A DNA stretch of 64,000 nucleotides. It comes from SAR86 cluster bacterium (GTDB lineage: Bacteria > Pseudomonadota > Gammaproteobacteria > Magnimaribacterales > Magnimaribacteraceae). Numbering within the stretch: the first letter of the stretch is position 1; every line of letters starts with the position of its first letter. The stretch spans positions 62,001 to 126,000 of the forward strand of contig JAQWNM010000009.1 in NCBI GenBank assembly GCA_029268615.1, read 5' to 3'. The notes beneath the pieces were generated by a model. The model was not told the DNA's origin, ran no database searches, and worked only from the letters and a program-made list of their open reading frames with translations. The translations under genes and the position numbers were made by a program. Below, piece by piece: positions 20,138 through 25,742 of the stretch.

Positions 20138-20746
20138 TTAAAAAAAGATGAAAAAACTTCTTCCTAGCTTTTTCTTACATCCCTGATATTGTGCATTATA
20201 TCTGTCTGACTGTCTTTGGACTTTATCTGCTACATTTAATAACCAAGGTTTCTTTCTATGATTTCCTTTTCTGAAACCCGACTTTCCTTCATGGTAAACA
20301 AGATAAAGTGATCTAGCATCTTTTAAAGAGATGCCCATACTTTTATGGGATTTATAATTATACCAACCTATAAAATCCACCGCATCCTCAAAGTCTCTTC
20401 TATCCCTGAACCAGCCTCCACGATCCTCTAAATACATTTCCCAAGTCCCATCTATGACTTGAGCATAGCCCTTGGCGCTCGTGGGCCTCTTCCAGGGAAT
20501 AAAACCTAAAAGCTTTGTTCTAGGCGGCTTAGCTCCTGCAATAAAGCTTGATTCTTGCTTTATAAATGCCATGGTTACAGGTATGGGCACTTTCCATCTC
20601 TCTTCTGTTTTCTTGGCAGCTTTGTACCAAGATTTCTTCTCTTTAAAAATCTCACAAACATTGGTTATATTTTTAGGGGGCAAGCTTGAACATCCAATAC
20701 CGATTATCAGGATAAAGGTTATAAGACTTATTAAATTTAAGTTCAT
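20138..20746 (-). CDS. SLT-type lytic transglycosylase-like lipoprotein
   Basis: 202-residue protein with a lipoprotein signal (lipobox GIGC, Cys at residue 19). The mature part has 'VPIPVTMAFIKQESSFIAGAKPP' with the catalytic-type Glu of the SLT/lysozyme fold (about residue 66), 'SAKGYAQVIDGTWEMY' (the GxxQ/GYAQ element) and 'YHEGKSGFR'. Such enzymes cleave murein glycan strands from the periplasmic side. The gene overlaps ligA by 4 nt and is translationally coupled to it. The C-terminal ~30 residues are basic and unassigned. Confidence 0.85.
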   Translation of the reverse strand: MNLNLISLITFILIIGIGCSSLPPKNITNVCEIFKEKKSWYKAAKKTEERWKVPIPVTMAFIKQESSFIAGAKPPRTKLLGFIPWKRPTSAKGYAQVIDGTWEMYLEDRGGWFRDRRDFEDAVDFIGWYNYKSHKSMGISLKDARSLYLVYHEGKSGFRKGNHRKKPWLLNVADKVQRQSDRYNAQYQGCKKKLGRSFFIFF

Positions 20747-22602
20747 TTTATTAAGTCATAATATTCACTTTCAGATAAAATCTTTATCCCTAGAGTCTTA
20801 GCTAACTCTAGTTTCTTTTCACCTACATTTTCACCAACAACCAATATATCTGTTTTTTTATTTACAGATGTCTGTATAGAAGCGCCCAAGGTGGATGCAT
20901 TTTCTTGCATACCTTCTCTAGAACTCTTCATTTTTCCAGTGAAGATAATTCTCTTATTACTAATTGGTGAAGAAGCTAATGCTTTAATGGAGTTAGTATC
21001 AGTCATTCTTAACTTAAATCTAAAATCTAATAATTTATTTATAGTTGCCCATAATTGATTAATCTCTTCTACAATTACTGGCGAAGCTATCGGCCCAAAA
21101 CCTGAAAGATTCTGAATCTCTTCAACCTTTAATTTATTTAATTCTGAAAGCGGAAAAGCCTTTAATAAACGTTTACTTTCTCCTATGCCCAGATACTGCA
21201 AACCAAATGCTGCCAAGAATCTCCAATCATCTATCTCTTCTTGTCTTGATCTTATTAATTGTTCAATTGCATTTGACGATTGTTTAGGGCCAAAACCAAG
21301 GTCTTCAAAGTCTTGTTTTTTCATGGAATAAATCTTTTCTAAGCTATCAAAACTGCCTTTATATAATTTTTCTATTGTTCTATTACCAAACAAATCAACA
21401 TTGCCCAAAATGTTAAAAAAATGAACTAAACTTGCTATCTGCTGCTCAGGACAATTTTTATGATCTATGCAAACTAAAAAGTCATTTTGCCAAATCAAAC
21501 TACTTCCACAACTCGGACAAGATTTAATCATTTTAAAATCTTTAGATTTCTTAATAACGTTGACTATCTTAGGAATAACCTCTCCGCTCCTTATGATTTC
21601 AATAACTGCCCCCTTACCCAGTCCTAGTTTCTTTATCATGCCTGCATGATGGGCTGTAACTCTCTTAATCTTTGCTCCTGAAAGTTCTGTTTCACTTACA
21701 TTCAAGACAGGTGTACACCTTCCAGTTCTGCCAAGCTGCCAAGAAATGGAAGCAACATTACAATTAGCTGTCTCTCCTTTTTCTTTATAAGCTATTTGCC
21801 AATTATAATGATGATTAGTTGACCCCATGAGTTGCTTTATTTCATCATCCAATACCTCCAATACTACTCCATCAGTAGGAAAATCAGAGACCTTAACTTT
21901 ATTCATTATTGAGTAAAAGTTTTCCATTAAGTCTTCTGAATTACCTTCCCAGCCAGTTAAAGAGGAATGAGGAATAAAGTGAACTGCTCCAGCTTTTAAA
22001 GCCTTTTGAGCTTCGTCATTTATTTTATCTGATCCTGCAATACCCACTATGACATTTCTAGGATGAGAAAATTTTTGAGATAGATGTTTGTTAAAAAAAT
22101 TTAAATCTAAAACAATCTCACCTAAGCCAGTATTCTTTCCTCCTATAGATTTAACTCCTTGTTTAAGAATTTTAGTAATATCAAAACCATATTCCCCATC
22201 TCCTCTTGTCAGCAATTTATTTTCTTCATAGTTACCTGCCATGCCATCAAGCTTAGCTGTAGCTTTAATTAAAAACTTCTGGTTTTTTGTGTTTTTCGCA
22301 AACTTGGTTACTCTAACCAAATACTTTTCTATATCTTCGATACTATAAGCTTTATCAATAGACAACATCTGTTGCGAATGTTGAACCTTCTTAGAAGAAA
22401 AAGTTTCTTCTTCTTCTTTTTCAATGTTTTCAAAATACTTATCATTTGGACTCAATGACTTTAAATGAATATAAATTCTGTCGTATTCTTCATCAGTTAT
22501 TTCTGGTGTACCTTGCCTGTAAGATTTATTAAAACCTTCTAACAATTCAATGATCTGATTTATCTCTAAATCATTTAAATCTAGATTACTTTCACGTTTC
22601 AT
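20743..22602 (-). CDS. ligA: NAD-dependent DNA ligase LigA, divergent
   Basis: 619 residues (E. coli 671) in the canonical smc-zipA-ligA position. Domains in order: Ia ('TPEITDEEYDR', residues 32-42), nucleotidyltransferase with adenylation motif AKLDG (Lys 117) and 'TRGDG' (132-136), OB fold ('GRTGRCTPV'), zinc finger (CPSCG...CIDHKNCP), helix-hairpin-helix repeats, C-terminal BRCT (about 540-619). Several normally invariant positions differ: motif IV reads DGVVLEV (Glu 249) where LigA has DGVVIKV; the NMN-contact Tyr-His pair of domain Ia is not preserved; 'GED' after TRGDG is GFD; PRNAAAGS is PRNVIVGI. Motif V Lys (AYK, 273) is kept. Either the lineage's replicative ligase has drifted mechanistically or this copy is specialised. 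Overlaps zipA by 11 nt. Confidence 0.88.
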   Translation of the reverse strand: MKRESNLDLNDLEINQIIELLEGFNKSYRQGTPEITDEEYDRIYIHLKSLSPNDKYFENIEKEEEETFSSKKVQHSQQMLSIDKAYSIEDIEKYLVRVTKFAKNTKNQKFLIKATAKLDGMAGNYEENKLLTRGDGEYGFDITKILKQGVKSIGGKNTGLGEIVLDLNFFNKHLSQKFSHPRNVIVGIAGSDKINDEAQKALKAGAVHFIPHSSLTGWEGNSEDLMENFYSIMNKVKVSDFPTDGVVLEVLDDEIKQLMGSTNHHYNWQIAYKEKGETANCNVASISWQLGRTGRCTPVLNVSETELSGAKIKRVTAHHAGMIKKLGLGKGAVIEIIRSGEVIPKIVNVIKKSKDFKMIKSCPSCGSSLIWQNDFLVCIDHKNCPEQQIASLVHFFNILGNVDLFGNRTIEKLYKGSFDSLEKIYSMKKQDFEDLGFGPKQSSNAIEQLIRSRQEEIDDWRFLAAFGLQYLGIGESKRLLKAFPLSELNKLKVEEIQNLSGFGPIASPVIVEEINQLWATINKLLDFRFKLRMTDTNSIKALASSPISNKRIIFTGKMKSSREGMQENASTLGASIQTSVNKKTDILVVGENVGEKKLELAKTLGIKILSESEYYDLIK

Positions 22603-23248
22603 TATTTACAGCTGATAAATTTTGTCTTTGTTCTTCTTGAGCTTTCTGTCTCATATGATCGATCATCTGCTTGGTAAGAATATTGCGACTATCATCTAGG
22701 AGATCAGTCTTGAAACTTTCCGAGAACCAAGTCGCAAAGCCCATCATGCGCTCAAATGATTCTACCGGATTAAGATTCTTTCTTGTATCTAACACTAAAC
22801 TCAGAAGTTGCGTTGATGATTGCTCATCTAACACTCCAGGTTTCATTCCATTAAGTAAAGAAAAATGAATATCTGATGCGGTCATGGAATTAAAAAAGAA
22901 ATAGCCTTTTTCATGATAAGTCATCCCTACAGTCTCTAACTCAGCCTTAAATAAGGATAATGTAAGTTCATTTTGCCCTTGTGACTTAAGATATAAAATT
23001 AATAATATACCTTCCTCTGACCTTTCTTGGTTTGCAATTTCAGTTTCGATTTCCTCTTCTTCGATAGACTTTGATAGATTAGAGGATTCTTCAATTTCAT
23101 TTTGTTTTAATTCCTGATCAATTTCTATAAAAGAACTCGCAAATTTAAGGTTATTTCTTCTTCTACGATTTGCTCTTCTAGTTATATCGACTATAACTAG
23201 TCCAAGAAAAAGGCCTATAAAAATAGTTAAAATCTCGCTCAAGTTCAT
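22592..23248 (-). CDS. zipA: Cell division protein ZipA
   Basis: 218 residues (E. coli 328). An N-terminal transmembrane helix (about residues 5-23) is followed by a basic RRANRRRRNN stretch, a short acidic linker (about 35-75) and the C-terminal FtsZ-binding domain (about 80-210), recognisable by 'LILYLKSQGQ', 'GYFFFNSMTASDIHFSLLNGMKPG' and the closing helices. ZipA tethers FtsZ to the inner membrane. The Pro/Gln-rich linker of enteric ZipA is almost absent, consistent with streamlining. Lies between smc (13 nt) and ligA (11-nt overlap). Its presence is itself a marker for Gammaproteobacteria. Confidence 0.88.
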   Translation of the reverse strand: MNLSEILTIFIGLFLGLVIVDITRRANRRRRNNLKFASSFIEIDQELKQNEIEESSNLSKSIEEEEIETEIANQERSEEGILLILYLKSQGQNELTLSLFKAELETVGMTYHEKGYFFFNSMTASDIHFSLLNGMKPGVLDEQSSTQLLSLVLDTRKNLNPVESFERMMGFATWFSESFKTDLLDDSRNILTKQMIDHMRQKAQEEQRQNLSAVNNET

Positions 23249-23261
23249 TTTGATTTATAAA

Positions 23262-25742
23262 TCAGGTCGTTACCATCTGCACGGCTTCATTCACATCAAC
23301 TGAGACTAACCTTGAGACTCCTGGCTCTTGCATAGTTACACCCATAAGATGATCACTTTTTTCCATTGAAATCTTATTATGCGTTATGTAAATAAACTGA
23401 ACTTTTTCAGACATTTCCACTACAAGATCTATAAATCTTGATGTATTTAAGTCATCTAGAGGTGCATCCACCTCATCTAACATACAAAAAGGTGCGGGAT
23501 TAAGTTCAAAAAAAGCAAAGACTAAAGCTATTGCAGATAAAGCCTTTTCTCCCCCTGATAGCTGGGAAACACTTGCATTCTTCTTACCAGGAGGACTTGC
23601 TATAATACCAACCCCTGAAGAAAGAAGATCTTCTCCCAGCATCACTAATTCTGCATGACCTCCCCCAAATAGTTTTGGAAAAAATTTAGATAAGCTGATA
23701 TTTAAACTATCAAAAGTATCTTTAAATGTAGTCTTAGTTTCTTTATCTATTTTTTGAATTGCTCCTTCTAAGGTTTCCAAAGCTGTAACTAATTCTTTAT
23801 TTTGCTCATCCAGATGTAACTTTCTCTTTTCTTCTATACCCGATTCCTCTACTGCAGCTAAATTTATTGCTCCTAATCGATTTATACCTCTTTCTATTTT
23901 ATCTATATTATCTCTTAAAGAAGTTTCAGTAGAGTTATCATCTATTAATTCCAGTAAAGTTTTTAAAATTAACTCACTCTCTATTAAATTCTTTTCTATA
24001 TTTTCTTTTTCTATTTTTGCTGCTTGAAGTTCTAATCGAAGGTCTTCTAATTTTTGCCTTTGGTAATTTGTATTCTGCTCCTGCTCAGCCTTAGTTCTTT
24101 CTAAAGATCTAATTGATTCATAATTTTTTTCTATTTCTGACCTAACTTTTAGCAAATCAGCCTCTATTGAAAGCCTTTTCTCTAACTTCTTATCTAGATT
24201 CTCTTGCAAGGAATTAACAGGCGCTAATAAATCAATAGACTCAGATTTTCTGAGCTCTAGTTTAGTAGAAATATTCTTTAAATCTGCATCAATATAATGA
24301 AGATTTGTGTTGACTGAGGCTAATTTTGCCTGGATATCCGCAAACTCTTTTGTCTTATAAAGTAAATCCTCTTTCTGAGCCTTATTTTCTTCTTCACTTT
24401 CTCTTAACAGATTATTTGTTTTTTCAATTAAAAGTGACGGTTCTGATTTTAGGCCTGATAACTCTGCTGAGATGACTTCTATTTTATTTTGAAGTTCTTG
24501 GACATTCTTCTCATCTAATTTGGATCCCAAATTATCTCTAAAGTTTTGATTGATATTAATAAAATCAGATATCAACGTATTTAATACAAGAAGCAACTTA
24601 TCCCATTCTAGTAGCAAATCTTTTGAGCCAGAGCCAATTAGGCTTTCTTGATTCTGACTCGAACTTAACTCTTCTATTTGGGGAGTCATTTCATTTAAAA
24701 CAGAAAGTAAATGCTCTCTTTCCTTGATCAATTCATCTGTCTCTAAATTCTTTAGATTCAAATTCTCTTTCAGCGATTCTATTTCAGAAATTAATTCTTT
24801 ATTCTTCTGCTTTTGTGTACTTAATTCTTGTTCATTACGCGATATATCTGATCCTGCTTCATAGAAGCTTTGCTGGATCTTATCCATAGTAGTTTGCAGC
24901 TCTAAGTTATTTGCTCTTAAAGTATCTATCTCGGCATCAGAAGAAATTTTTATTGTATTCACTTCTTCCATCTTGACTTGTTGGAGGCTTATCTCCTCTT
25001 CATGCTGAATTACCTTTTCATGAATAGACTTCCATTGAAAAGCTTTTAATATTCCACGAGCTTCATTTTCTTGTTTTCTTAGAATAGAGTATTTCTCAGC
25101 GGCTTTTGCCTGTTGTTTCAACTTTATGAGAATTCTGTCAACTTCATCTCTTAAATCCTGCAAACGATCTAAATTCTCTCTAGTTCTTTTTATCCTAGAT
25201 TCTGTTTCTTTCTTTCTTTCTAAGTACTTGGATATTCCAGCTACTTCCTCTATGTAAGATCTCATTTCTTCTGGCTTAGAACTAACTAATCTAGAAATCA
25301 TATCTTGCTCTATGATTGCATAACTCTTAGGTCCTAGACCTGTTCCCAAGAAAACATCAGTTATATCTCTTTTACGACAAGATGCAGAATTCAAAAAGTA
25401 ATTGGATTGACCATCTAATTCAACTGTTCTTCTAACAGATATTTCATTGTAACTAGAGTACTCCCCACCTATACGCCCATCTTCATTGTCAAAAAAAAGT
25501 TCTACAGAAGCCCGAGAAACTGGTTTTCTGCTAGATGAACCATTGAAAACAACATCTGCCATTGTGTCACTTCTTAGATTTCTTGCTGAGCTTTCACCAA
25601 GAACCCATCGAACTGCATCTATCACATTAGATTTTCCGCAACCATTTGGACCTACCACTCCCGTTAAGCTTGAAGGAAAGGCTATTGAGGTTGGATCTAC
25701 AAAGGATTTAAATCCTGATAGCTTAATTTGTTTTAACCTCAT
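23262..25742 (-). CDS. smc: Chromosome segregation protein SMC, short and hinge-less
   Basis: 826 residues against ~1150-1190 for bacterial SMC. Both head halves are intact: Walker A GPNGCGKS (31-38), N-head to ~165, C-head from ~620 with signature LSGGEK (728-733), Walker B CMLDEVDAPLDD (753-764) and 'ITHNKISME'. Between them are coiled-coil stretches of about 170-360 and 375-620. No segment resembles the ~150-residue hinge dimerisation domain; the arms are joined only by a Ser/Gln/Gly-rich stretch SSQNQESLIGSGS (361-373) and a short hydrophobic helix (376-394). Strong AAGGAGG ribosome-binding site. SMC normally forms an ATP-driven DNA-loop-extruding dimer through the hinge with ScpAB; ScpAB genes are not in the window. 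Confidence 0.92.
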   Translation of the reverse strand: MRLKQIKLSGFKSFVDPTSIAFPSSLTGVVGPNGCGKSNVIDAVRWVLGESSARNLRSDTMADVVFNGSSSRKPVSRASVELFFDNEDGRIGGEYSSYNEISVRRTVELDGQSNYFLNSASCRKRDITDVFLGTGLGPKSYAIIEQDMISRLVSSKPEEMRSYIEEVAGISKYLERKKETESRIKRTRENLDRLQDLRDEVDRILIKLKQQAKAAEKYSILRKQENEARGILKAFQWKSIHEKVIQHEEEISLQQVKMEEVNTIKISSDAEIDTLRANNLELQTTMDKIQQSFYEAGSDISRNEQELSTQKQKNKELISEIESLKENLNLKNLETDELIKEREHLLSVLNEMTPQIEELSSSQNQESLIGSGSKDLLLEWDKLLLVLNTLISDFININQNFRDNLGSKLDEKNVQELQNKIEVISAELSGLKSEPSLLIEKTNNLLRESEEENKAQKEDLLYKTKEFADIQAKLASVNTNLHYIDADLKNISTKLELRKSESIDLLAPVNSLQENLDKKLEKRLSIEADLLKVRSEIEKNYESIRSLERTKAEQEQNTNYQRQKLEDLRLELQAAKIEKENIEKNLIESELILKTLLELIDDNSTETSLRDNIDKIERGINRLGAINLAAVEESGIEEKRKLHLDEQNKELVTALETLEGAIQKIDKETKTTFKDTFDSLNISLSKFFPKLFGGGHAELVMLGEDLLSSGVGIIASPPGKKNASVSQLSGGEKALSAIALVFAFFELNPAPFCMLDEVDAPLDDLNTSRFIDLVVEMSEKVQFIYITHNKISMEKSDHLMGVTMQEPGVSRLVSVDVNEAVQMVTT

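Follow-up and report, generated by a model that had tools for sequence, protein, structure and literature searches.

Hinge-less SMC proteins in the SAR86 order, and separate hinge loss in SAR11

The only SMC protein found in the 1.77 Mb genome of a SAR86 cluster bacterium has no hinge, and the hinge is absent throughout the SAR86 order. The gene lies in a window of 64,000 nucleotides (the whole stretch of DNA that was analysed). SMC is the chromosome-organising motor of nearly all bacteria and normally pairs via the hinge, which is regarded as common to all SMC complexes and underlies the ring-entrapment model as well as several models of DNA loop extrusion. Our reading, to which we give a probability of about 0.6, is that the protein is a genuine single-copy SMC that still serves as the Smc-ScpAB ATPase, its subunits being paired by the kleisin, the heads and contacts between the arms. 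SAR86 and SAR11, both among the best known bacterial groups of the surface ocean, offer natural SMC-kleisin systems, with no hinge left in any of the complete genes examined. The ATPase, the joint, the kleisin, the kite subunit and the loader remain in these systems, which show what an SMC can lose.

The smc gene and its heads

The smc open reading frame (23262..25742; all features in the window lie on the minus strand) starts with ATG, is intact and encodes 826 residues. As the original prediction had claimed, both head halves are present, and every ATPase motif could be located. The N-terminal half (residues 1-170; 25233..25742), delimited by Walker A and the predicted model and with a mean column conservation of 94% in the window protein's family, carries the Walker A motif GPNGCGKSN (residues 31-39; 25626-25652). 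The C-terminal half (residues 661-826; 23265..23762), placed by its ATPase motifs and the model, carries the signature LSGGE (residues 728-732; 23547-23561), the Walker B motif FCMLDE (residues 752-757; 23472-23489) and the D-loop LDD at residue 762; the Q-loop is likewise present. These ATPase motifs are invariant across 42 aligned relatives. The protein scores 802.2 bits, in two stretches, with the NCBIfam model TIGR02168 (SMC_prok_B), versus an equivalog cut-off of 567.35. Rad50 models give at most 34.8 bits against cut-offs of 700-1087, and no MukB model was among the domain-model matches.

Two arms lead away from the heads. The N-terminal arm helix (residues 170-364; 24651..25235), as modelled by AlphaFold2, is collinear with full-length SMC up to residue 362. 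In the C-terminal arm (residues 433-660; 23763..24446), confident homology to full-length SMC starts at residue 505, which corresponds in the profile alignment to residue 841 of the 1162 aa Pseudomonas protein. The collinear homology of residues 1-362 and 505-826, together with the long predicted helices, points to an antiparallel coiled-coil arm with a joint. In the AlphaFold2 model, the C-side helix is broken at residues 589-592, 600-605 and 623-629 in a manner resembling the SMC joint, which in B. subtilis comprises residues 188-253 and 922-1011 (PMC5526789). The retained part of the window SMC, as modelled, includes the head-proximal joint, and the breaks at about 589-629 are consistent with this.

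Absence of the hinge

The hinge model PF06470 (SMC_hinge) has no match in the 826 aa protein at E values up to 1, nor anywhere in the window's 1.77 Mb genome. This by itself is weak evidence, since PF06470 also misses genuine hinges in several full-length gammaproteobacterial SMCs, for example in the genome G213 (open frame of 1165 aa). A custom hinge HMM, made from 79 full-length gamma- and alphaproteobacterial SMCs, and a profile-profile alignment with 73 full-length gammaproteobacterial SMCs were therefore used as well. With the custom HMM, SAR86 SMCs score at most 7.3 bits, versus 35-218 bits for hinge-bearing gammaproteobacterial proteins and 89-113 bits for alphaproteobacterial ones; the G213 protein is among those scoring at least 35 bits. 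In the profile-profile alignment, residues 1-362 pair with high confidence with residues 1-362 of the full-length protein, and 505-826 with 841-1162. Between these blocks, 478 residues of the full-length SMC (the distal parts of both arms plus the hinge) stand opposite 142 in the window SMC; the hinge region has zero confident column pairs. A divergent hinge overlooked by PF06470 can thus be rejected, the custom HMM and the alignment being empty as well.

The length deficit is 336 aa relative to the 1162 aa Pseudomonas protein, close to the approximately 340 residues that the original prediction had given as missing. By sequence, then, the central hinge domain that belongs to SMC_prok_B is absent from the window SMC. 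The original prediction had also named the observations that would overturn it, namely a hinge match, a second full-length smc in the genome or a full-length smc in close relatives; none of the three was found.

Hinge loss across the SAR86 order

Is the short protein a peculiarity of one genome? The original prediction needs correcting on this point: the loss extends to the whole order, has occurred independently in SAR11 and is probably found in two further families as well. PF06470 has a match in none of the 199 SAR86-order genomes; across the class, 285 of 369 genomes have one. The window SMC, used as a query, is matched in 57 of 61 relatives, either by a whole short protein or by pieces of it. 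Complete SMCs from the order (n = 51, from four families and including single-contig genomes) are uninterrupted open reading frames of 727-995 aa. The families f1 and f3, nearest in architecture, match end to end with 47-61% identity; f2 and f4 have SMCs of 727-736 aa, and one genus has 995 aa. A 727 aa SMC labelled "uncultured SAR86 cluster bacterium" (L205) falls inside the SAR86-order clade of the tree.

The gene is also maintained by selection. Among 35 close pairs within the window SMC's family, dN/dS (ratio of medians) is 0.008-0.010 for the heads, 0.07-0.08 for the arms, 0.105 for the distal C-terminal arm and 0.12 for the tip, so that the hinge-less smc is under purifying selection, including its tip. 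An assembly deletion, a misbinned contig or a decaying pseudogene might be suspected because the window's genome is a draft in 18 contigs. However, each of the 51 complete SMCs, drawn from four families and in part from single-contig genomes, has the same architecture, the reading frames are intact and purifying selection is strong. Such an artefact has practically no chance of being the explanation; order-wide conservation and dN/dS rule out a deletion or pseudogene.

The 995 aa SMC belongs to the SAR86 genus g14 (L067:2358-5342 and L068:2505-5489). It is also hinge-less, and segments of arm, tip and joint are repeated in it: residues 1-590 of L067 match 1-574 of L066, and residues 490-994 match 192-731 of the same protein. 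From these repeats, the g14 arms were apparently lengthened by internal duplication after the hinge had been lost.

Gene order and partner proteins

Downstream of smc by 13 bases lies zipA (22592..23248; PF04354 ZipA_C, 60.9 bits), followed by ligA, encoding the NAD-dependent DNA ligase (20743..22602), which completes the smc-zipA-ligA order. The same order is found in SAR86 relatives and in hinge-bearing gammaproteobacteria. The assignment of the gene as the smc of this locus rather than a stray paralogue is thereby borne out, the protein being the sole SMC of its genome.

The partners are in place too. In the window's genome, scpA (G000:C1 67375-68001, minus strand) adjoins scpB (G000:C1 66851-67333, minus strand). 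Each of the two genes was found in 57 of 61 SAR86-order genomes; outside the order, scpA was detected in 15 of 16 SAR11 genomes as well as in all five genomes from the gammaproteobacterial families f145 and f42. Among the genomes sampled for parB, the gene was detected in 17/18 from SAR86, 10/10 from SAR11 and 5/5 from f145 and f42. With scpA, scpB and parB kept, the remainder of the Smc-ScpAB-ParB system is retained.

These partners bear on the suggestion that the protein no longer serves as a condensin and has become a monomeric or loosely paired repair clamp like RecN, SbcC or Rad50. Its short, hinge-less arms do resemble those of RecN and SbcC in outline, and Foldseek searches with the predicted model, which returned only SMC-like heads and coils, included Rad50 among many SMCs. 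On the other hand, the SMC_prok_B score of 802 bits stands against at most 35 bits for Rad50 models, the arms of all hinge-less SMCs retrieved lack CXXC, scpA, scpB and parB are kept, and the genome has no other SMC that could fill the condensin role. A clamp of this kind is accordingly most improbable. The original prediction had put it on a level with pairing through a residual helix and pairing through the heads and ScpAB. The three are not equally likely: heads plus ScpAB is the most likely mechanism, and the RecN/SbcC-like monomer is disfavored by the retained partner genes, the SMC rather than Rad50 score and the lack of CXXC.

The arm tip

In place of the hinge, the arms of the window SMC end in a tip (residues 365-432; 24447..24650) with no similarity to a hinge. 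AlphaFold2 predicts helices at residues 170-364, 372-404, 411-431 and 433-588, with low-confidence loops between them; pLDDT falls to 47-63 in places within the tip, and the pTM is 0.35. The hydrophobic helix that the original prediction had placed between the arms is real: the segment DLLLEWDKLLLVLNTLISDFI (residues 375-395; 24558..24620) is the most hydrophobic 21-mer of the arms, with 62% ILMFVWY, and is a candidate for contact between two tips. Conservation is lowest in the tip (0.39-0.54 in f1), whose sequence varies between families. The distal segment of the C-terminal arm directly after it reaches 0.71-0.79 in f1. A zinc hook can be ruled out, since the arms of all SAR86, SAR11, f145 and f42 SMCs retrieved lack CXXC.

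Could the tip helices constitute a new dimerisation domain, two tips packing as a helical bundle and closing the ring much as the zinc hook does in Rad50? The hydrophobicity of residues 375-395 exceeds what a two-stranded coil needs, and f1, f2 and f3 all peak near the tip (0.48, 0.43 and 0.50, respectively, versus 0.43, 0.38 and 0.48 elsewhere in the arms). The model adds two predicted helices there, and in f1 the adjoining segment of the C-terminal arm is well conserved. However, the margins in f2 and f3 are small, and enrichment at the tip is absent from SAR86 family f4 and from all SAR11 groups, which rules out a hydrophobic tip as a general feature. Poor conservation and divergence between families also count against a dedicated domain, as does the SAR11 model, an unbroken, plain hairpin whose turn takes up three residues (390-392) and is flanked by pLDDT values above 80. 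We consider a new dimerisation domain rather unlikely as the explanation, with perhaps a modest chance of being correct. For the window SMC's own family, a dedicated tip domain is possible and tip-mediated pairing plausible. With f4 and SAR11 lacking the hydrophobic tip, pairing by the tip cannot be the common solution. Dimerisation through the residual helix, as originally proposed, would thus fit SAR86 families f1-f3 and, judging from their sequences, would not be general.

Alternatively, a separate protein might bind the arm tips and join them in trans, for which hydrophobic tips would provide a binding site in those lineages that have them. Such a joiner would not be a detached hinge, since PF06470 has no match in the 199 genomes of the order, and no candidate gene stands beside smc, which has only zipA and ligA downstream. 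We regard a joiner in trans as very unlikely.

How could an SMC without a hinge work?

The preferred reading, an Smc-ScpAB ATPase paired without a hinge, would involve the following sequence of events and contacts. No later than the ancestor of the SAR86 order, the hinge would have disappeared together with the outer portion of each arm; the arms so shortened would now close via a short helical tip. Within a Smc-ScpAB complex that ParB loads, the SMC would supply the ATPase activity. ATP-dependent engagement of the heads would join two SMC subunits, while the ScpA kleisin and the ScpB dimer would bridge the two heads. Side-by-side contacts between the arms would add to the pairing, presumably aided in the window SMC's family by the hydrophobic tip.

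We infer that the hinge-less complex is dimeric, is paired in this way and organises the chromosome; for pairing without a hinge, the inference draws on two sets of results from B. subtilis. First, this species grows normally on rich medium when its Smc hinge is swapped for the zinc hook of Rad50, an unrelated structure, so that dimerisation rather than the hinge fold matters there (PMC5344682). Second, a contribution of contacts between the arms to the dimerisation of hinge-less Smc has been proposed (PMC5526789). The claim that loss of the hinge is normally fatal therefore needs a qualifier (PMC5344682). Arm length is critical in B. subtilis Smc (PMC5344682).

Comparison with known systems

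The window SMC shares with the Smc of Smc-ScpAB (TIGR02168; B. subtilis, Pseudomonas) the ATPase heads, the neck and joint, collinear proximal arms, ScpA and ScpB as partners, ParB and the smc-zipA-ligA order. It differs in having neither hinge nor distal arms, about 480 residues being reduced to 142. The Smc(Zh) chimera of B. subtilis, in which Smc lacks the hinge fold and works, is similar in that respect; however, it is engineered and has the Rad50 zinc hook as a dimerisation domain (PMC5344682). In Rad50 and SbcC, too, an antiparallel coil ends in ABC heads and has no SMC hinge; however, they pair by a CXXC zinc hook that the window SMC lacks, and its scores are far under the Rad50 cut-offs.

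The only precedent that turned up in the open literature is a clade of hinge-less SMCs described from marine actinobacteria, for which questions of paralogy and lineage are open (Sussfeld et al. 2025; PMC12153180). Like the window SMC, these proteins are marine, consist of heads and coiled coil with no hinge and no CXXC, and are reported not to co-occur with a regular SMC (PMC12153180), just as the window SMC is the sole SMC found in its genome. In contrast, the actinobacterial clade branches with actinobacterial SMCs (PMC12153180), whereas the window SMC is found among those of gammaproteobacteria, in an order of Gammaproteobacteria, at the native smc-zipA-ligA locus and together with scpAB and parB. 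What is new relative to this precedent is the occurrence of order-wide, single-copy and syntenic hinge-less SMCs with full sets of partners, and of independent losses. SAR86 and SAR11 are not mentioned by Sussfeld et al. 2025 (PMC12153180), and no report of hinge loss in either group was found in the open-access literature. One survey of SMC proteins was seeded with hinge sequences (PMC5344682), so hinge-less SMCs would not appear in it.

SAR11 and other lineages

A scan of genome contigs brought up Pelagibacteraceae SMCs of about 800 aa. In a survey of Pelagibacterales, matches were obtained in 136 of 147 genomes, and those that are complete correspond to open frames of about 800-890 aa. All 45 complete SAR11 SMCs (of 46 SAR11-labelled complete proteins, those placed in the tree's SAR11 clade or obtained through the Pelagibacterales survey) are hinge-less, with 798-881 aa and at most 2.1 bits with the custom hinge HMM; the SAR11 hinge-less SMCs are L226, L228, L273-L315 and L321. 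Other alphaproteobacterial SMCs listed are about 1150-1270 aa. The SAR11 protein resembles the window SMC in size, in lacking a hinge, in keeping ScpA and ParB and in its small genomes, and differs in its alphaproteobacterial descent, its separate hinge loss and the plain hairpin predicted for its tip.

In a tree of the heads, which included no actinobacterial sequences, SAR11 groups with alphaproteobacteria (100/100) and SAR86 with gammaproteobacteria, and the AU test rejects a topology that unites the SAR86 and SAR11 sequences (p = 7.7e-46). The two groups cannot, then, have shared a single hinge-less gene through horizontal transfer, and on this phylogenetic evidence the two losses are independent. 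The remaining one of the 46, an 817 aa hinge-less SMC from a MAG labelled Pelagibacteraceae (SP38; L235:6001-8451), sits on a long branch apart from SAR11; perhaps the MAG belongs to the HIMB59/AEGEAN-169 lineage, in which case the hinge may have been lost independently there as well.

Within the class, genomes that have an SMC but no PF06470 match have complete open frames of 1127-1264 aa, except in f145 (open frames of 930-950 aa) and f42 (940-947 aa), two families with genomes of 1.0-1.1 Mb that are probably also hinge-less. Their SMCs (L323-L325 from f145 and L326-L327 from f42; 927-944 aa) have longer arms than those of SAR86, and the LigA gene adjoins smc. Constraining SAR86, f145 and f42 together is not rejected (AU p = 0.40), so that one to three losses within Gammaproteobacteria are possible. 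Taken with the head tree, the AU tests indicate that Pseudomonadota lost the hinge at least twice and possibly four times or more.

A wider proposal, which we put forward tentatively and with appreciable doubt, is that hinge loss is recurrent in streamlined ocean bacteria (SAR86, SAR11, the two further gammaproteobacterial families and the marine actinobacterial clade), where Smc-ScpAB would function with its two arms open at the top, and the cells would need neither a closed SMC ring nor pairing by the hinge to organise their chromosomes. The need for ring closure becomes directly testable in these lineages, which provide a natural test with small proteins (727-881 aa in most groups); SAR11 includes cultured strains. 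A small genome alone does not predict the loss, since the hinge is present in several gammaproteobacterial genomes of 1.0-1.4 Mb (G412, G510, G544 and G228). In a single-contig 1.0 Mb genome from family f31 with no parB match, a hinge match lies within an open frame of 656 aa (G370:C1:454753-455034); this smc is possibly decaying.
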